From NCBI RefSeq assembly GCF_020091585.1, contig NZ_CP083582.1, positions 4,092,001 through 4,156,000 on the forward strand: a DNA stretch of 64,000 nt. The letters run 5' to 3'. The notes under the pieces are model-generated. The model was not told where the DNA came from and did no database searches. It saw nothing but the letters and a program-made list of their open reading frames with translations. Positions 44,751 through 59,158 of the stretch are shown in pieces. The stretch comes from Kovacikia minuta CCNUW1 (GTDB lineage: Bacteria > Cyanobacteriota > Cyanobacteriia > Leptolyngbyales > Leptolyngbyaceae). The position numbers were made by a program, and so were the translations under genes. Every line of letters begins with the position of its first letter. The stretch's first letter is position 1.

Positions 44751-45435
44751 TCAACAAGGGTCTATTTGTAAAAGCTGATTTCCCCCCCTTTGAAACTCGT
44801 AGGGAACCTGCCTGATTTGTACCGCGTATCCCTGAGCCGTCAATTCCTCGACAACCGCAGGTAGAAACGGAGAAGGTTCGCCAGCAAGATTCAGCAGGGG
44901 AAAGATGCGAGCTTTAGTGGCAACTCGGCAGCAGTTCCCGGATCGAGTCTAGATGGAAGTCCAGGGATAGATGGTCAGAGTAGGTAAACAGCAAGTGGGA
45001 ACAGAGTGCCAGGTCGAACTGTCTGGTTGCAAACGGAAGCACAGGTAACGCATGGGTCCGGTAGCGTCCCTGGTGTTTTCCGGGGGGGAAATCTTCTAAA
45101 AACTGGCGCATCGCAGCCATCCGAACCTGCCCCAGGTGTTCGGGAGACTGAATCTCACGCCAAACGTAGCAGTGCTGATTTACCTCCACCTGTTGAATAA
45201 TAACCGGGTAGGTTTCTTCGATCCGGCGCTGGATTTCATCCCTTGAGAACTGATAAACCGGGTCACAGGAAAGGACGGAGTAGCCCTGGCGGGTCATTTC
45301 AGCATTAAAACTAGCCGGACCACCGCCGCAGTCTAAAATCCGCAGTTGCAGATCAGTTTGAGTCAGGTCAAACATTTGGGTATATTCGAGGAGCGATCGC
45401 CCCCAGGGCACCACCTGTTCCAGCTTTAGTCCCAT
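44751..45435 (-). pseudogene. SAM-dependent methyltransferase, frameshifted
   Basis: The first frame (from ATG 45435) encodes the Rossmann N-terminus ILDCGGGPASFNAEM and CDPVYQFSRDEI, and a later ALCSHLLFTYSDHLSLDFH, then runs off the family at IRELLPSCH and stops at 44914. In the next frame the missing C-terminus continues uninterrupted: RVATKARIFPLLNLAGEPSP, then QGYAVQIRQVPYEFQRGGNQ, ending at 44751. Removing one base around 44928-44935 restores a single 227-residue protein. The gene begins 2 bp after the UPF0173 hydrolase stop codon, so the two form an operon. It is either an assembly indel or recent inactivation. Confidence 0.8.
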
Positions 45436-48900: not shown

Positions 48901-49698
48901 TTATTCCTCGTCCATATCCTGGGGCTGAACGGGGAATAATTCGACCTTTTCGGGTTGCTTTTCGTTGACTAACTCTGGAAGGGCGAGGGGCTGTCGTTCC
49001 GGTATGCGCTCAGGGAGGGTAACCAATTCCTGTTCCGTTTCCTTCATCGTTACGGGCAGGCGCAGCGGTTGCAATTCCTCGATCCAGCAGCTTGCCAGTG
49101 GCAGGGTTTGATCCAGATCTTCCAGGGGACGGGGTACTAGCATGACAGCATGTAGTTCCCCAATCCGCTCAGCCTCAACCATGCCGACATCCAGGGCAAC
49201 GGCTACATTGGCGACGGAACCTCGAATAATGGCTGTGCACAATCCAGCGCCGATCGTTTCATAGGCTGCCAGAACCACATCTGCTGCTTTCATCATGGCA
49301 TCAGCGGCTCCTACCATTGCCGGGAAACCACGGGTTTCAAGTAAGCCAACGGCTTGATTACTGAGTTTGCTGTGTCCCCGCCCTGTCGCTAACTGTGCCA
49401 GCCGATTCCCAATAGGTAACACTGCTTCCAGATTTGGCATCGGACGGGCAACCACCAGAGTCGAGAGGGTTTGACCAAATTGTTGTGCCCGTTCAGCTCC
49501 TTCCTGCACTGCCAGCCGCACATCCGCCACCCCACCCCGGACGATCGCAGTGCAGTGTCCGCTGCCAATTTTCTCATAGCCCACCAGCGTCACACCCGAC
49601 GACTTCAACATATGGTCGGCAATGCCCACGATCGCGGGAAAGCTCTGGGCAGATACTAAACCCAGGGCAGTGTCTGTAAAATCTTCTCGTCGGCTCAT
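48901..49698 (-). CDS. ccmO: carboxysome shell protein CcmO
   Basis: This 265-residue protein contains two BMC shell domains: residues about 9-92 ([37 protein letters not shown]) and 114-200 (AVGLLETRGFPAMVGAADAMMKAADVVLAAYETIGAG). A 65-residue Glu/Leu/Pro-rich tail follows. Tandem-BMC proteins form pseudohexamers; CcmO occupies the facets or edges and is required for carboxysome assembly in Synechococcus. It is the last gene of the ccmK2-K1-L-M-N-O run, convergent with the hybrid kinase. Confidence 0.97.
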   Translation of the reverse strand: MSRREDFTDTALGLVSAQSFPAIVGIADHMLKSSGVTLVGYEKIGSGHCTAIVRGGVADVRLAVQEGAERAQQFGQTLSTLVVARPMPNLEAVLPIGNRLAQLATGRGHSKLSNQAVGLLETRGFPAMVGAADAMMKAADVVLAAYETIGAGLCTAIIRGSVANVAVALDVGMVEAERIGELHAVMLVPRPLEDLDQTLPLASCWIEELQPLRLPVTMKETEQELVTLPERIPERQPLALPELVNEKQPEKVELFPVQPQDMDEE

Positions 49699-49829: not shown

Positions 49830-50447
49830 TTAATCCTCCCACGGATCTTTTGCCAGGGAATCTGATTCGGGGGAAGGACTATCTGAGCGGCGGCTATTGG
49901 GAAACATTTTGACCAGTAGCTGATTGACATAAACCTGGCCATAGACATTCACGCCAGAACTTTCGACGGGTTTGCTGGATGGCTCCACAACGGTTGGTTC
50001 AACAGTAGGGGGGTCAGCAGGGGCTTGATGGTTTTGTGGCTCAGCAGCAGGGTAGGTAACCGTATCCGTTGCCTGAAGCTCCTGCATTTGACGGCTGGTG
50101 TCGCCAATTAAGGAACCAGAAGGAACCACCTGTCCCCATGCAACTGAGGCATTGAGGATGGTTGCTGCTGAGCCAATACAGGCATTTGCACCGATCGTGA
50201 CCTGTCCAATTAACAGCACCTCGGCACCAATATTTGCACCTTCCCCCACCTCTACAGTGCCCTGCTGGGCATGGAGAATTGAACCAATACCAATGCAGAC
50301 GCCTGCTTTAATTACAATCCGACTGCCCGGATCGGCTTGAATCAAAACGCCGGGAGCGATCGCAACGCCATCTTGAATGGTCACATCGCCACTGGTGTAG
50401 AAGTGGGAGGTGCTAATCGGTTGCAGTTGCAGGGACGGCAAAGACAT
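49830..50447 (-). CDS. ccmN: carboxysome assembly protein CcmN
   Basis: This 205-residue protein has an N-terminal left-handed beta-helix (residues about 15-110: hexapeptide repeats such as VAIAPGVLIQA and IGANACIGSA). A Pro/Glu-rich linker follows, then the encapsulation helix VYGQVYVNQLLVKMFP near residues 168-183. The helix binds the shell protein CcmK2, while the beta-helix binds CcmM, linking the Rubisco condensate to the shell. It lies 95 bp downstream of ccmM and 131 bp upstream of ccmO. Confidence 0.96.
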   Translation of the reverse strand: MSLPSLQLQPISTSHFYTSGDVTIQDGVAIAPGVLIQADPGSRIVIKAGVCIGIGSILHAQQGTVEVGEGANIGAEVLLIGQVTIGANACIGSAATILNASVAWGQVVPSGSLIGDTSRQMQELQATDTVTYPAAEPQNHQAPADPPTVEPTVVEPSSKPVESSGVNVYGQVYVNQLLVKMFPNSRRSDSPSPESDSLAKDPWED

Positions 50448-50542: not shown

Positions 50543-52616
50543 TCACTTTTTACCTGGTTTCTGAATAACCGTCTCAACCGTTCTGCGCTTCGTCCTGGGG
50601 TCGATTCCAATCAGCCGCACATAGTCTCGCTGATGCTCATTCAGAAACGCTCCCAGGGCTGCCACGATTTCTGCCTCTCGATTTCCTGAAATTGTGCCAG
50701 TTTGCCAGGAACTCGTTTTATAGCGGCGTTCGTCGGCGTATTCAACACCAACCTTATAGCTTTGGGCAAGCAGTTGGCGCACTTGATCAGTTACATTCCT
50801 GTCGAGGGAACTACTGCTATAGCCACTATTGCTATGACCACTGCTGCTGTAGCTGTGCTTAGCTGAAGGTTGGCTGGTTGGAGCGGAAGCTTTGAACGAA
50901 CCAGCAGATGCACCCGTCGTGTGCTTGCCATTCGGACGATGAATGATCAACTCTGTTACCCGCCGTTTGACTTTTGGATCAATCCCAACCAGGCGAACAT
51001 AATCGCGATCGTGTTCGTTGAGGAAAGACTCCAGCGCTGCGATCGCCTCCGACTCCCGGCGGGCATGAAGTGCTGCCGCGCTCTGCCAGGAACTTGTCCT
51101 AAATCGACGCTCATCCGCATACTCCAACCCAATTTGTGCGCCCTGGGCAATCAGTTGGCTTAACTGCTGCACCACCTCTGGGCTTAAGCGATGGGTGGAT
51201 GCATATCCTGCTGAAGCAGCCGCACCGCCCGTTGGTGCCGGTGCAGTATAGGAGTGAGCCGACGAACTGGAACCTTGAACGGTTTTGCCGTTTGGACGTT
51301 GAATGATCAGTTCCCCGATCCGCCGCTTCGCCTTCGGATCAATGCCAAACATGCGGACATACTCGCCCCCGTGTTCCCTCAAGCAGCCTTCTAATCCCGC
51401 CAAAACTTCTGACTCACGGTTAGACTGAATCGGTGAACAACTATGCCAGGAACTCGTCTGAAATCGTCGTGCATCGGCATGCTCAGTGCCAATCTTGGCA
51501 CCCTGTGCCAGTCAAATGGCGTATCATTTGCACCGCTTCCGCACCAATACTGCCTCCTCCCTGCCCACTGATGCCTGCTGGCGACCGATGGTTCGATGGA
51601 AATGATACCGAACTACTGGGATAGCTTGTGTTTCGGGCAGAACCGTTATGGGTGACAGGAGCCTTACCCCCCGGACGTTGAATAATTGTTTCCAGAACCC
51701 GTCTCTTCGCCTTTGGGTCGATCCCAATCAGGCGCACGTACTCACCGCTATGTTCCGCCAGACAGCTTTCCAGCTCTGACAAAACATCGCGATCGCGGGT
51801 CGCCTGGATCGGCGCACAGCTTTTCCAGGAACTGGTTTGAAAGCGGCGCTCGTCTGCATGTTCGGTACCGATTCGATACCCTTGAGCTAACAATTGCCGG
51901 ACATGGTTAACAACATTGGCATCTAAACCGCCGTTAGCATGGCTTTGGGAGTAAGTATTCATCTCTGTCCAACCGGAATTACTGGATTTGTTTAGCTGAT
52001 CACGAAGGGGGGCAATGCAGGCGGTATTCTCTGCACACTGGTAGCCCGATCGCAATGCATGATTGACACCGACCACGTGGGACGCAAACCTAATATCGGA
52101 CTCCTGCACACTCGGCAACCGGTCGGCCTGCTGCTGGGACGTGATCACCGACCCGGAGGGTACATACCTGCCAGGAGGAATTTCCACATCTTGGATCAGG
52201 GTATGCATCATCACGATGCAGCCCTCTCCCACCCGCGCATTAAATACCGTAGAACGAAAGCCGATAAAGCAGCCGTCCCCAATATATGCAGGACCATGAA
52301 TCAGAGCCATGTGGGTAATAGACGCATTATTCCCAATCCAAACGGAATAGGAATGATCATCGTCGCCAATCACCCGTCCCTTTTCCAACCCATGAATGAC
52401 CACTCCATCCTGGACATTCGCTCCGTCACCGATATGAAAAGGCGCTCCCTCATCTGCCCGGATTGTTGTTCCAGGAGCAATCAAGACATCAGCGCCGATG
52501 CGGACATCCCCAATCAAATTCGAAAACGAGTGAATATACGCCGTCTCGTGAATTTTAGGTTCAGCTAAACTTTTTGACCAGGGAGTAGGAGGAGCCGCAG
52601 AACTACGAACTGCCAT
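50543..52616 (-). pseudogene. ccmM: carboxysome scaffold CcmM, interrupted by one extra base
   Basis: Start ATG at 52616 has GGAG seven bases upstream. The first frame encodes the gamma-carbonic-anhydrase beta-helix (residues about 15-200, with THMALIHG and a C-x6-C pair in [10 protein letters not shown]) and the first Rubisco-small-subunit-like module, then ends at 51483 soon after IRHL. The rest continues one frame over without further defect: [16 protein letters not shown], then three more modules, to 50543. Deleting the T at 51512 yields an intact 690-residue CcmM with four SSUL modules, the length of Synechocystis CcmM. A Met codon at 51962, just before the first module, could start the short Rubisco-linking form. 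The defect is either an assembly indel or a lethal-seeming mutation. Confidence 0.9.
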
Positions 52617-52699: not shown

Positions 52700-52999
52700 T
52701 TAATATTGATCTCGCTTGCTATATAGCAGGCGATTTTCAACACTTACGGTGTCAATAATGGCGATCACGGCTGCATCAAGCGGGCGTTGTTCACTCCCCT
52801 GGACTTGACGGGCAGCACTGCCATGACTGACAAGAACCCATTCATCTACCCCTGCCCCAACATTATCGGCAGCCACTTCATATTCGGGCAGTGGCTGCCC
52901 ATCTTCGTCCATCAGTTGCAGTACCAAAAATTTAATCCCCCGAAGGCTGGGTTCCTTTTGAGTACTGGTGACGGTGCCACGAACTTTGGCAATCTGCAT
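52700..52999 (-). CDS. ccmL: carboxysome vertex protein CcmL
   Basis: This 99-residue protein is of standard length. [21 protein letters not shown] and [14 protein letters not shown] are signatures of the EutN/CcmL family, which forms pentamers that cap the twelve vertices of the icosahedral shell. It begins 6 bp after the ccmK1 stop codon, so translation is probably coupled. Confidence 0.97.
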
Positions 53000-53005
53000 C
53001 AGTTT

Positions 53006-53347
53006 CTAGGGGCGGTTAAGGGGACGGATGCCGCTCACGCTTTCGCGGAAGGGTTCAACCGCTTCGGTGTAGCGAATCGGTAGGACATACTCCAGGTTTT
53101 CGTGGGGACGCGCAATGATGTGGGTCGAAAGCACCTGCCCACCGTTAACCCGCTTAACATTCTCAATTCCAGCGGCAACGGATGCTTGAACCTCAGATAC
53201 ATCTCCCCGAACAATGACAGTCACCCGTCCACTCCCAATCTTTTCGTAGCCAACCAGGGTGACGCGGGCGGCTTTCACCATTGCATCAGCGGCTTCCACA
53301 ACAGCGGGAAACCCTAATGTTTCAACCATTCCAACTGCAATTGCCAT
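53006..53347 (-). CDS. ccmK1: carboxysome shell hexamer CcmK1
   Basis: This 113-residue single BMC-domain protein starts [23 protein letters not shown] and has the pore-forming KIGSG loop at about 37-41. It has a longer C-terminal tail ([12 protein letters not shown]) than the neighbouring copy, which is how CcmK1 differs from CcmK2. Hexamers tile the shell facets and pass bicarbonate and phosphorylated sugars. GGGAG lies eight bases before the ATG. Confidence 0.95.
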
Positions 53348-53460: not shown

Positions 53461-53769
53461 TCAACCACGGAACTGTTCAACGGCTTCGGTATAGCGAATG
53501 GGTAGAACATATTCCAAGTTTTCGTGCGGACGAGCAATGATATGGGTGGATAGAACCTCCCCTCCATTGACGCGCTTTGCGGATTCAATTCCCGCTGAAA
53601 CGGACGCTTGAACTTCAGAGACATCTCCCCGAACAATGACGGTGACCCTACCGCTACCAATCTTTTCGTAGCCGACAAGAGTGACACGAGCGGCTTTCAC
53701 CATTGCATCTGCGGCTTCCACAACAGCGGGGAAACCTCTTGTTTCAATCATTCCCACAGCAATGGGCAT
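53461..53769 (-). CDS. ccmK2: carboxysome shell hexamer CcmK2
   Basis: This 102-residue BMC protein ([44 protein letters not shown]) is nearly identical to CcmK1 over 90 residues, implying gene duplication. It is the major facet protein and the docking site of the CcmN peptide. As the first gene of the run it carries an AGGAGA ribosome site six bases before the ATG. The promoter must lie in the 672-bp space shared with ndhF4. Confidence 0.95.
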
Positions 53770-54441: not shown

Positions 54442-56328
54442 ATGCATGAGTTTCTCCTCCAGTCCAGTTGGTGGATTCCCTGTTACGGACTGATTGGCGC
54501 AATTTTGACTCTGCCCTGGGCAATGGGGCTTGTTCGGCGCACCGGACCTCGCCCCGCCGCCTACCTCAATCTTTTGATGACTGTCATTGCGTTGATCCAC
54601 GGCACGGTCGTGTTTCGGGAGACCATTGGACATGGCTCCTACCCCTTAGTGATTCACTGGTTGCAAGCCGCAAATTTGGATCTCTCCCTTACTCTAAATA
54701 TCAACTCGGTCAGTACGGGTGCGGCTGACTTGGTTACGGGGATGAGTCTCCTGGCTCAGTTTTTTTCTTTGGGCTACATGGAAAAAGATTGGGCGCTGGC
54801 GCGGTTCTTTGCCCTGATGGGCTTCTTTGAAGGAGCCATGACGGGTTTGGCACTGAGTGATTCTCTGTTCCTCAGCTATGCCCTGCTGGAACTGTTGACC
54901 CTATCTACTTACATGCTGGTTGGGTTTTGGTATGCCCAACCGCTGGTTGTTACTGCCGCACGGGATGCTTTTTTGACCAAACGGGTGGGCGATGTGTTGC
55001 TACTGATGGGAGTGGTGGCACTGGCAACCTTTGCTGGCACCCTCAACTTTCCCGATTTGTACGAGTGGGCAGAAACAGCAGAACTATCTCCCACGGTTTC
55101 AACGCTCCTGGGACTGGCGCTAATTTCTGGACCGATCGGAAAGTGTGCTCAGTTTCCGCTCCACCTCTGGTTGGATGAGGGAATGGAGGGACCCAACCCC
55201 GCTTCGATTTTACGAAACTCAGTGGTGGTGGCTTGTGGAGCCTATATATTAATCAAGCTGCAACCGATTTTGATTCTGTCACCCGTGGCATCTACAGCCC
55301 TGGTTGTGCTGGGTACGATGACCGCGATCGGGGCATCTCTGGTGGCGATCGCACAAATTGACATTAAGCGGGTCCTTTCCCATTCTACGAGCGCTTATTT
55401 GGGACTCGTATTTATTGCAGTGGGAACCCAGTGGACGGATGTGGCGCTGTTTGTGCTGTTTGGGCATGCGATCGCCAAAGCCCTGCTGTTTATGAGTATT
55501 GGCTCTGTCATCCTGACCACCAGTTGTCAGGACATTACCGAAATGGGTGGCTTGTGGTCTCGTATGCCAGCGACCACCTGTGCCTTTGTGGTGGGTACTG
55601 CGGGTCTGGTTGGATTGCTTCCGCTAGGAGGATTTTGGGCGCTCTATGAAGGCGTGGATACCTACTGGTATGGTCAGCCCTGGCTCGTTGCTGTCCTGTT
55701 GCTGGTTAACTTGCTGTCAGCCTTTAATTTGACCCGTGTCTTCCGGCTCGTTTTTCTGGGGCCGTCTCAGCCTAAGACCCGCCGTGCTCCAGAGGTGCCC
55801 TGGACAATGGCAGTACCAATGGTTTCTCTAACCATCATCACCCTTGTTGTTCCCTTCATGCTGGAGCGGTTGCAAATCCTCCCAGATTGGAGCTATCTCA
55901 ACCAACCCGCTGCTATTCTGTTGATTTTGTCGGGGCTGTTGGGCAGTTGGTTAGGAGCAACGGTCTACCTGAATCGTGCCTGGATGAGACCCGTTCAGAT
56001 TCCTCTCAGGTTTACCCAAGACTTGCTAGCGTATGACTTCTACGTTGAACAATTGTATCGAGTAACCGTTGTTTGGGCGGTGGATTTGATTTCGCGGGCA
56101 AGTGCCTGGTTCGATCGCTACATCCTGGATGGGGTGGTTAACTTTGTTGGACTGGCATCTATCTTCAGCGGTGAAAGCCTGAAATATAGCGTGACGGGTC
56201 AATCCCAATACTACATCCTGACGATTTTGTTTGGTGTCGCATTGCTGATGCTTTGGATTGTCTGGCCCTTTTTGTCTAATTTTTCCAGTCTCTACAGCAT
56301 CAATCTTCCCAGTCTGTTTTCAGGTTGA
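54442..56328 (+). CDS. ndhF4: NDH-1 subunit F, CO2-uptake form
   Basis: This 628-residue protein has about sixteen transmembrane helices and the antiporter-like core (TKRVGDVLLLMGVVALATFAGTL, LALISGPIGKCAQFPLHLWLDEGMEGPNPASILR). It is a NuoL-type proton-pumping subunit. Its position before an NdhD and a CO2-hydration protein marks the specialised NDH-1MS complexes. I call it NdhF4 because the third gene has ChpX length and because this trio often lies next to ccm genes; NdhF3 is the alternative. AAAGG lies ten bases before the ATG. Confidence 0.88.
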   Translation: MHEFLLQSSWWIPCYGLIGAILTLPWAMGLVRRTGPRPAAYLNLLMTVIALIHGTVVFRETIGHGSYPLVIHWLQAANLDLSLTLNINSVSTGAADLVTGMSLLAQFFSLGYMEKDWALARFFALMGFFEGAMTGLALSDSLFLSYALLELLTLSTYMLVGFWYAQPLVVTAARDAFLTKRVGDVLLLMGVVALATFAGTLNFPDLYEWAETAELSPTVSTLLGLALISGPIGKCAQFPLHLWLDEGMEGPNPASILRNSVVVACGAYILIKLQPILILSPVASTALVVLGTMTAIGASLVAIAQIDIKRVLSHSTSAYLGLVFIAVGTQWTDVALFVLFGHAIAKALLFMSIGSVILTTSCQDITEMGGLWSRMPATTCAFVVGTAGLVGLLPLGGFWALYEGVDTYWYGQPWLVAVLLLVNLLSAFNLTRVFRLVFLGPSQPKTRRAPEVPWTMAVPMVSLTIITLVVPFMLERLQILPDWSYLNQPAAILLILSGLLGSWLGATVYLNRAWMRPVQIPLRFTQDLLAYDFYVEQLYRVTVVWAVDLISRASAWFDRYILDGVVNFVGLASIFSGESLKYSVTGQSQYYILTILFGVALLMLWIVWPFLSNFSSLYSINLPSLFSG

Positions 56329-56400
56329 GTTTGCCCCTCAATGGAAGCAATCCAAACTCAGAACTCCTTCCTTAAAACTTAAAACTCAAAACTTCTAGCT

Positions 56401-57867
56401 ATGCTCAGTGCTTTGATTGTTATCCCTCTGCTTGGTGCAATTTTGGTTGCAGTGTTGCCCAGGGAAATTGCCCCCCAATACGTTCGCCCAATCACCCTGC
56501 TGGTCTTGGTCATCACCATCGTCTGGTCAGTTCTGTTGGGGTTTAAGTTCGACCCCGCGATCTCCGACCTGCAATTTGAGGAAAATCTCCCCTGGATTGC
56601 ATCCCTGGGCTTAACCTACCGATTGGGATTGGATGGCCTATCACTGCCACTCATTGTTTTAAATGCTGTTCTGACCTGGATTGCAATCTACAGTACCGAC
56701 GAAACAATCCAACGCCCGCAGCTTTATTACTTCCTCATGTTGTTGCTAAATGCGGGAGTTGCGGGAGCGTTTCTGGCTCAGGATTTGCTTCTATTCTTTC
56801 TGTTTTACGAAGTAGAACTGATTCCGCTCTATTTTCTAATTGCGATTTGGGGCGGTACGAATCGGGGCTATGCTGCCACCAAGTTTCTCATCTATACCGC
56901 CTTGTCGGGTGTCATTATCCTGGCAGCCTTTCTGGGATTGAACTGGTTGAGCGGGGCTTCCACTTTTGATTACGATGCCACCCGCAGCCAGGCGCTCCCC
57001 TTAGTCACCCAACTAATTTTGCTGGGAACCCTGCTGGTTGGATTTGGCATCAAAATTCCACTGGTGCCGCTTCATACCTGGCTCCCCGATGCCCACGTTG
57101 AGGCATCTACGCCTGTTTCAGTTCTCCTGGCTGGGGTGTTGCTGAAACTGGGAACCTATGGTTTATTGCGCTTTGGCATGGGGTTATTTCCCGAAGCCTG
57201 GGCGGTGCTGGCTCCTGGACTGGCAACCTGGGCAGTGGTTAGTGTGCTGTATGGAGCGTTTACAGCGATCGCCCAAACCGACATGAAAAAAATGGTTGCC
57301 TACAGTTCGATCGGACATATGGGCTACATTTTGTTAGGAGCCGCTGCCGCCACTCCCCTCAGCATTCTGGGGACTGTGTTTCAGATGATTAGCCACGGAC
57401 TCATCTCAGCCCTGTTATTCCTATTGGTTGGTGTCGTTTACAAAAAGACGGGCACCCGCGACATTACAATCCTGCGGGGGTTGCTCAATCCGGAACGGGG
57501 ACTCCCACTCATTGGTTCATTTATGGTCATGGGTGTGATGGCAAGCGCAGGCATTCCTGGCATGGTCGGGTTTATCTCCGAATTCCTGATCTTTTGCGGC
57601 AGTTTCCCCGTTTTCCCAGCCCAAACCCTGCTTTGCATGATTGGTACAGGCTTAACCGCCGTTTACTTTCTATTACTTGTAAACCGCACCTTCTTCGGTC
57701 GCCTGCCCAATCAGTTTTCCAATCTACCCACGGTTCAGTGGGCAGAACGCACCCCAGCCCTTATTCTGGCTGGAATTATTGTATTTTTAGGACTAAATCC
57801 AGCCTGGTTAGTTCATTGGACTGAAGTCACTACAACGGCAATGCTTGGAACAGGGGGGAGGGGATAG
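56401..57867 (+). CDS. ndhD4: NDH-1 subunit D, CO2-uptake form
   Basis: This 488-residue NuoM-type antiporter subunit has about fourteen helices: FYEVELIPLYFLIAIWGG with the conserved Glu of helix 5, LHTWLPDAHVEASTPVSVLLAG with the helix-7/8 charged residues, and MKKMVAYSSIGHMGY. It pairs with NdhF4 in the distal membrane arm of NDH-1MS', where redox-driven proton movement powers CO2 hydration. It lies 72 bp after ndhF4. Its last residues (GTGGRG) run into repeat sequence. Confidence 0.9.
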   Translation: MLSALIVIPLLGAILVAVLPREIAPQYVRPITLLVLVITIVWSVLLGFKFDPAISDLQFEENLPWIASLGLTYRLGLDGLSLPLIVLNAVLTWIAIYSTDETIQRPQLYYFLMLLLNAGVAGAFLAQDLLLFFLFYEVELIPLYFLIAIWGGTNRGYAATKFLIYTALSGVIILAAFLGLNWLSGASTFDYDATRSQALPLVTQLILLGTLLVGFGIKIPLVPLHTWLPDAHVEASTPVSVLLAGVLLKLGTYGLLRFGMGLFPEAWAVLAPGLATWAVVSVLYGAFTAIAQTDMKKMVAYSSIGHMGYILLGAAAATPLSILGTVFQMISHGLISALLFLLVGVVYKKTGTRDITILRGLLNPERGLPLIGSFMVMGVMASAGIPGMVGFISEFLIFCGSFPVFPAQTLLCMIGTGLTAVYFLLLVNRTFFGRLPNQFSNLPTVQWAERTPALILAGIIVFLGLNPAWLVHWTEVTTTAMLGTGGRG

Positions 57868-58012
57868 GGGATAGGTGTCAGGTGTCAGGTGTCAAGGATA
57901 AGGATAAAGGAAAAAAATATCTCCTCACCCCATCACCCCATCACCCCATCACTCCCCACTCCTCCCTCCCCACTCCTCCCTCCCCCCCCCTCACCTTCCA
58001 CTCCCTACTGCC

Positions 58013-59158
58013 ATGACCAGCACGAGCAAAAAATCCCCTGCGCCCCATCCCCTGGAGGAAATCATCCATCGTCTAGAGACTGGGGGGGCACTGTTGCCTG
58101 ACTCCCCTGAAAATGTGATGGAAGTAGTCGGCATTCTTAAGAGCTATGGCGTGGTTCTAGATGCCTACTGGCGGAACCTAATCTATATTTCCGAGAATCA
58201 ATTTCTGGTGTTGTTTCCATTTTTCAAGTATTTCAATGGGGACGTTACGATCGGTAAGCTGCTGCGGCACTGGTGGCACGATCGGATCAATTATGAGTTT
58301 GCCGAATACTGCATGAAAGCGATGCTGTGGCATGGTGGTGGCAAATTAGATACATATTTAGATTCGTCAGAATTTTTGCAACTGGCAAACCAGGCAATTC
58401 AGGCAAAGCTGCGGGGAAATTTCCTTATGCAGGGAGTCGGAAAAGCCTTTCCTGACTTCCTCCCAGAGCAGGTGCGGCAGATGGCTTATTACAGTGCTTT
58501 GGGACAATTCTGGCGAGTGATGAGTCCCATGTTTTTAACCCTATCTGACCGCTACGATCGGGGAGAAATTAAAACCATTCCAGATGTTGTTGCCCATGTG
58601 CTGCAAGGTTTGGTGGAAGCTGCCAACAAACCAATTACCTACGCAGTGAAAATTGGCGACCAGATGTATGACATTATTCCCGAATCCGCTGGTTTGACCT
58701 TTTTGATGGATACTGCGGTTCCCTATGTGGAGGCCGTGTTTTTCCGATCGTTTCCATTTATGGGGACGGTTTCTTACAATGCGCAGGTTTGTCAGATTTC
58801 TCCAGATATTGGTCGGTTTAACTACGGGGCACTTTATGCCGATCCCCTCCCTGTCGGTGGTGCGGGCATTCCACCAACTTTGTTGATGCAGGATATGCGC
58901 CATTTTTTGCCCCCCTATCTGTACGAGTTTTACATGCGATCGCTACGGGGCGAAGCGGATATGCGGGTCAATATTTGCGCCAGTTTTCAGAAGTCGATGT
59001 TCTGTGTAACGACTGCTGCCATGTTGGGATTAGCCCCCCATCCAATCGACACGACCGACCCAGAACAGCGAAAAAAAAATCGGGCTTATCTGGAATCCTG
59101 GATGAATCGCTTTATGGATTCGCGCTTACCCGGTGTGCAGGTTTGCGAAGTGGGCTAA
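58013..59158 (+). CDS. chpX: CO2 hydration protein ChpX (CupB)
   Basis: This 381-residue soluble protein belongs to the ChpX/ChpY family (LEEIIHRLETGGALLPDSPENVMEVVGILKSYGV, WRNLIYISENQFL, FFKYFNGDVTIGKLLRHWWHD). ChpY (CupA) proteins are some 60 residues longer, so length favours ChpX, the constitutive, lower-affinity form. It sits on the NdhD4/NdhF4 arm and acts as a one-way carbonic anhydrase that turns cytosolic CO2 into bicarbonate. A 145-bp repeat-rich spacer separates it from ndhD4, and the ATG has only a C/T-rich leader. Confidence 0.88.
   Translation: MTSTSKKSPAPHPLEEIIHRLETGGALLPDSPENVMEVVGILKSYGVVLDAYWRNLIYISENQFLVLFPFFKYFNGDVTIGKLLRHWWHDRINYEFAEYCMKAMLWHGGGKLDTYLDSSEFLQLANQAIQAKLRGNFLMQGVGKAFPDFLPEQVRQMAYYSALGQFWRVMSPMFLTLSDRYDRGEIKTIPDVVAHVLQGLVEAANKPITYAVKIGDQMYDIIPESAGLTFLMDTAVPYVEAVFFRSFPFMGTVSYNAQVCQISPDIGRFNYGALYADPLPVGGAGIPPTLLMQDMRHFLPPYLYEFYMRSLRGEADMRVNICASFQKSMFCVTTAAMLGLAPHPIDTTDPEQRKKNRAYLESWMNRFMDSRLPGVQVCEVG

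Follow-up and report, generated by a model that had tools for sequence, protein, structure and literature searches.

An extra base that splits ccmM in the Kovacikia minuta CCNUW1 assembly is almost certainly a consensus error

CcmM is known from other species as the protein that cross-links Rubisco and couples it to the other carboxysome components. Like the beta-cyanobacterial CcmM (M58/M35 of Synechococcus elongatus PCC 7942), the CcmM analyzed here has a gamma-CA-like domain followed by SSUL (RbcS-like) modules, and its gene lies within a ccmK-ccmK-ccmL-ccmM-ccmN-ccmO cluster. It differs from the PCC 7942 protein, for which the part of PMC8580825 available to us describes three SSUL modules, in that there are four and in that they are spread over two reading frames in the assembly. 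Were these frames to yield two products, their domains would resemble the SSUL-only CcmM of Chamaesiphon minutus PCC 6605 and the one-SSUL satellite CcmMs, as described in the portion of PMC5853843 consulted. The window, by which we mean the whole 64,000-nucleotide stretch that was analyzed (C1:4092001-4156000), belongs to an assembly of 8.56 Mb in three contigs.

The ccm cluster is whole in every gene apart from ccmM, which sits between ccmL and ccmN in the main carboxysome locus, the position of a CcmM gene (Table 1). The two shell protein genes of the cluster matched microcompartment shell models under the cut-offs, and we take them to be ccmK genes from their position. Adjoining the cluster are divergent, whole genes of the ndhF3, ndhD and ChpXY types (54442-59158, +), types associated with NDH-1 CO2 uptake. 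A PF00101 profile search of the whole genome gave six matches in all and found no second SSUL-bearing ccmM: four matches are the SSULs of ccmM, one is the Rubisco small subunit, and one, at C1:2861946, falls within a 523-residue frame that is perhaps a putative Rubisco activase. Elsewhere in the genome we observed divergent psbA-like genes at C1:4604155, C1:4597302 and C1:4884034, with a more distant D1/D2-like match near one of them; these are possibly part of a far-red light cluster.

Table 1. Coordinates, in window positions, of the carboxysome genes, the parts of ccmM and a second broken gene
Feature	Position	Strand	Models and remarks
ccmK-type shell protein gene, whole	53461..53769	-	microcompartment shell models, all under cut-offs
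second ccmK-type shell protein gene, whole	53006..53347	-	microcompartment shell models, all under cut-offs
ccmL, whole	52700..52999	-	NF053795 over cut-off, positions 1-99 of 99
ccmM first frame	51483..52616	-	PF00132, PF00101; gamma-CA (hexapeptide) domain and SSUL1, 9 out-of-frame residues, stop
SSUL1	51672..51935	-	PF00101
Extra-base site	51511..51513	-	51512 (T on +) and 51513 (C on +) equal in fit, 51511 nearly so
SSUL2, frame break inside	51293..51514	-	PF00101 with one internal TGA
ccmM second frame	50543..51511	-	three PF00101 stretches; SSUL2 to SSUL4, including stop codon
SSUL3	50933..51187	-	PF00101
SSUL4	50555..50824	-	PF00101
ccmN, whole	49830..50447	-	NF053793 over cut-off, positions 1-118 of 118
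ccmO, whole	48901..49698	-	NF053792 over cut-off, positions 2-205 of 205
Methyltransferase-like gene, ~227 residues	44754..45435	-	one extra base near 44926-44930

As assembled, ccmM does not form a continuous frame. Translation from the start at 52616 (-) bore out the preliminary description in that the first frame ends soon after IRHL, with nine further residues and then the stop at 51483, and the two minus-strand frames agree with its reading that a single extra base splits the gene. Its choice of T51512 as that base proved too specific: dropping 51512 from ccmM gave 690 residues with zero internal stops, and dropping 51513 (C on +) gave the identical protein (CAT TTA CTG versus CAT TTG CTG), so that the two tie as the removable base in the frame-scoring, with 51511 close behind. 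The extra base lengthens no single-base run, and both A/T (T51512) and G/C are possible for it. The restored 690-residue protein carries, as described, a gamma-CA domain and four SSUL modules; the hexapeptide domain is N-terminal (PF00132, E 9.9e-18), and PF00101 matches once in the first frame and in three stretches of the second. The break had been placed between the first two modules and is better placed inside SSUL2, at its RHLLAQG motif and outside the linker, because the equivalent motif of SSUL1 lies within the PF00101 match of that module (residues 229-315) and because the SSUL2 match, whose profile alignment starts as late as position 22, extends to 51514 with one TGA inside. A TGA immediately precedes the first shared codon of the second frame. 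Counting ATG, GTG and TTG as starts, the second frame has none upstream of SSUL2, and the first is at residue 405, within that module, so that even with a real extra base no usual start would give SSUL2-4 as a unit. For an M35-like form, the ATG at CcmM residue 219 (window near 51962, -), after GGACAGAG, is a candidate internal start; it lies upstream of SSUL1, and its product would run into the same frame break.

Comparison with the ccmM of relatives, which the preliminary description had proposed, showed that nearly all have the gene in a single frame. The genome-level search covered 58 genomes including the assembly itself, and thus 57 relatives; among the matches listed, 56 of the 57 (all but G035) had a ccmM match, and 32 of the 34 same-family genomes had it in a single open frame that is 562 residues long or longer. 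The two same-family exceptions are G031, where the gene lies at contig ends, and G009, where it is in pieces with two frame lengths (406 and 232) that are those of locus L067. At the level of individual loci, after seven distant gamma-CA matches of other phyla (L068-L070, L072-L075) were excluded, ccmM was in a single frame in 84 of 91, a set in which the loci are not all different organisms because, for example, the values of L007 and L076 are identical. The seven others are two genes at contig ends (L059, L066), one whose junction contains an N (L054), two in low-coverage bins (L063 and L067, stated coverage 2.3 and 3.5) and two with ccmM outside one long frame (L045, L052); these last two aside, no clear natural split of ccmM was found among the relatives' loci. 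The break site is read straight through, as RHLLAQG in L007, L076 and L077, RNLLAQG in L008 and RQLLAQG in L018, and none of these five loci, compared base by base, has the extra base. In the three closest (L007, L076, L077) dN was 0.22-0.24 after the break versus 0.23-0.28 in the SSUL1 part, and in the distant rows the values before and after the break were 0.32/0.31 (L008) and 0.44/0.32 (L018). These values show that selection has kept the frame past the break, but over the long term only, and they cannot date a lesion, since synonymous changes have reached or nearly reached saturation.

In order to determine how common such breaks are in this assembly, 758 open frames, drawn from 1.2 Mb of a close complete genome (G025), were compared with 1.655 Mb of it, and 106 conserved genes (119.9 kb) passed the limits of 50% identity and 70% covered. 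Frame switches were apparent in 12 of the 106, at 11 distinct and unrelated places, ccmM included. Every one of the 11 is equivalent to one extra base and becomes stop-free after a one-base removal, and at each a one-base insertion outscored a two-base loss, by margins of 2 to 21, the smallest being that of ribF. Over the positions that tie for best, the removable base could only be G or C at eight places and is possibly G/C at the remaining three, which include ccmM; at six places, again including ccmM, no single-base run is lengthened. Inspection by eye of the 11 places revealed no shared motif. The reverse test (127 genes) yielded three frame switches: one is the tail of a break in the K. 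minuta assembly, one is in a gene of that assembly crossed by four same-sense steps, and the third, A_241033, may be real in G025. As two of the three trace to breaks in the K. minuta assembly, G025 would have at most one case of its own. Interior stops outside frame switches were found in 2 of 100 genes in the forward and 6 of 125 in the reverse direction, from which it follows that nonsense changes are no commoner in the assembly studied.

By the same method, 60 relatives' loci (275 gene-locus pairs, 371 kb) gave 13 switches as a control. Five of these were in one poorly conserved gene, and the other eight were in five bins with a stated coverage of 2.7 to 7.7; seven of the eight went the other way, each equivalent to the loss of one base. 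The excess in the assembly over the 60 loci is moderate when every switch is counted (Fisher p = 0.058 for all 13; p = 0.006 minus the five in the poorly conserved gene), and against the reverse test at its first count (3/127) the value was p = 0.013. With ccmM set aside, the rate is 10 places in 117.9 kb, or one per 11.8 kb, giving an expectation of 0.18 in ccmM and a probability of 16% for one or more; an insertion in a 2 kb gene is thus unremarkable where one-base insertions are so frequent. Extrapolated to the whole assembly, this amounts to some 500 frameshifts in coding sequence. We also observed a match at C1:4204027-4208767 (L115:9027-13767) to a 1626-residue frame of G025 with four successive frame steps in the same sense; this frame was kept out of the count, a paralogue being its best match, and the rate may on that account be an underestimate.

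Three of the 11 places are in ileS (isoleucyl-tRNA synthetase; C1:3614207), purH (C1:4294970) and ribF (C1:6921985), and a cell lacking these genes is not expected to grow. Each is present as two adjacent frames, and a whole-genome search found no intact second copy of any of them (the ileS query was the first 588 residues, to which the other matches were distant, at 27-32% identity). Since genes that are needed are broken and no intact copy was found, we infer that this class of one-base breaks is mostly artefact. A further case lies 6.6 kb from ccmM, where the frame of a methyltransferase-like gene stops prematurely at 44914 and the gene resumes in a different one; its full reading was matched in 14 of 19 relatives and is a single frame in all 14. 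Within the sampled 1.655 Mb, copies of repeats that are 700 bp or longer and 97% identical or more differed by 207 mismatches and 51 gaps over 103,484 aligned bases, and all 51 gaps are one base long (42 G or C, 9 A or T), although these are not independent events because copies recur across pairs and some pairs entered the count two times.

Because the same kind of mistake affects roughly a tenth of the compared genes, among them some that the cell should need, the ccmM break is almost certainly an assembly error. We are accordingly highly confident in attributing the extra base to an uncorrected consensus error, and in an organism whose ccmM is intact and encodes a 690-residue CcmM with gamma-CA and four SSUL modules. 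Of the three readings offered, with none preferred, by the preliminary description, it is the assembly error that gains strong support from the recurrent one-base insertions and the repeat gaps; the high-CO2 lesion and the genuine split do not. The pattern resembles long-read indel errors as characterized in the part of PMC12007338 consulted, where small length errors make intact genes appear broken, but differs in that all 11 places here have an extra base. The cause would lie in how the genome was sequenced or its consensus built, probably from long reads that were not fully polished. It may be objected that the ccmM base lengthens no run and may be A/T while most repeat gaps are G/C; however, six of the 11 places lengthen no run and nine of the 51 gaps are A or T, and the base can reasonably be placed in the assembly-wide class.

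The sequence would look identical if a single strain had recently suffered a real lesion, and such a loss of function, tolerated in culture with enough CO2, is the alternative that survives best, although it is very unlikely. It is what the sequence as given encodes, and the ccm genes around it are undamaged, which is what a recent single hit would leave. The lesion would yield gamma-CA trimers in which each chain has a single SSUL, and an M35-like form truncated after SSUL1. Against it stands the same class of break in ileS, purH and ribF, and no decay was seen in the remaining locus. The more specific suggestion of a strain adapted to high CO2 finds no positive support, because the ccm locus is otherwise unbroken and the neighbouring NDH-1-type CO2-uptake genes are whole.

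A genuine split, in which gamma-CA plus SSUL1 and SSUL2-4 are made as separate proteins in the manner of Chamaesiphon, is extremely improbable. In its favor, the part of PMC5853843 available to us describes separate gamma-CA and SSUL-only forms in one cyanobacterium and one-SSUL satellite CcmMs elsewhere; these are whole genes in that account, whereas here no ATG, GTG or TTG precedes SSUL2 and a second SSUL-bearing ccmM is missing from the profile matches. In addition, the section of PMC8580825 consulted reports that a Synechococcus CcmM trimmed to one SSUL lost homodemixing. A working split is unlikely from the position of the first start codon, and nearly all of the relatives' loci are single-frame, so that a split is not common to them. 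Programmed +1 frameshifting, by which the site would give a short protein as well as the full-length one, has a precedent in CsoS2 of the alpha-carboxysome and would fit the conservation of both frames and the apparent purifying selection on the downstream one, but its chances are negligible given that the putative slip site is not conserved (the five relatives compared lack the extra base), that the upstream frame has no stop codon at the slip point and that the 11 places have no common motif by eye.

Returning to the consensus error, its wider consequence is that, with some 500 coding frameshifts extrapolated for this assembly, calls of pseudogenes or split genes in it should be made only with the reads at hand. 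There is a slim chance that the base is real, in which case the carboxysome would be built on a CcmM of gamma-CA and one SSUL, giving three SSULs per trimer, and would lack a multi-SSUL M35-like form, or there would be no working carboxysomes; the strain would then be a natural test of the minimum number of SSUL modules per carboxysome. As the break is far better read as an error of the consensus, a false lead on the loss of CcmM in a beta-cyanobacterium is removed, and the intact CcmM of this organism would cross-link Rubisco and connect it with the other parts of the carboxysome.
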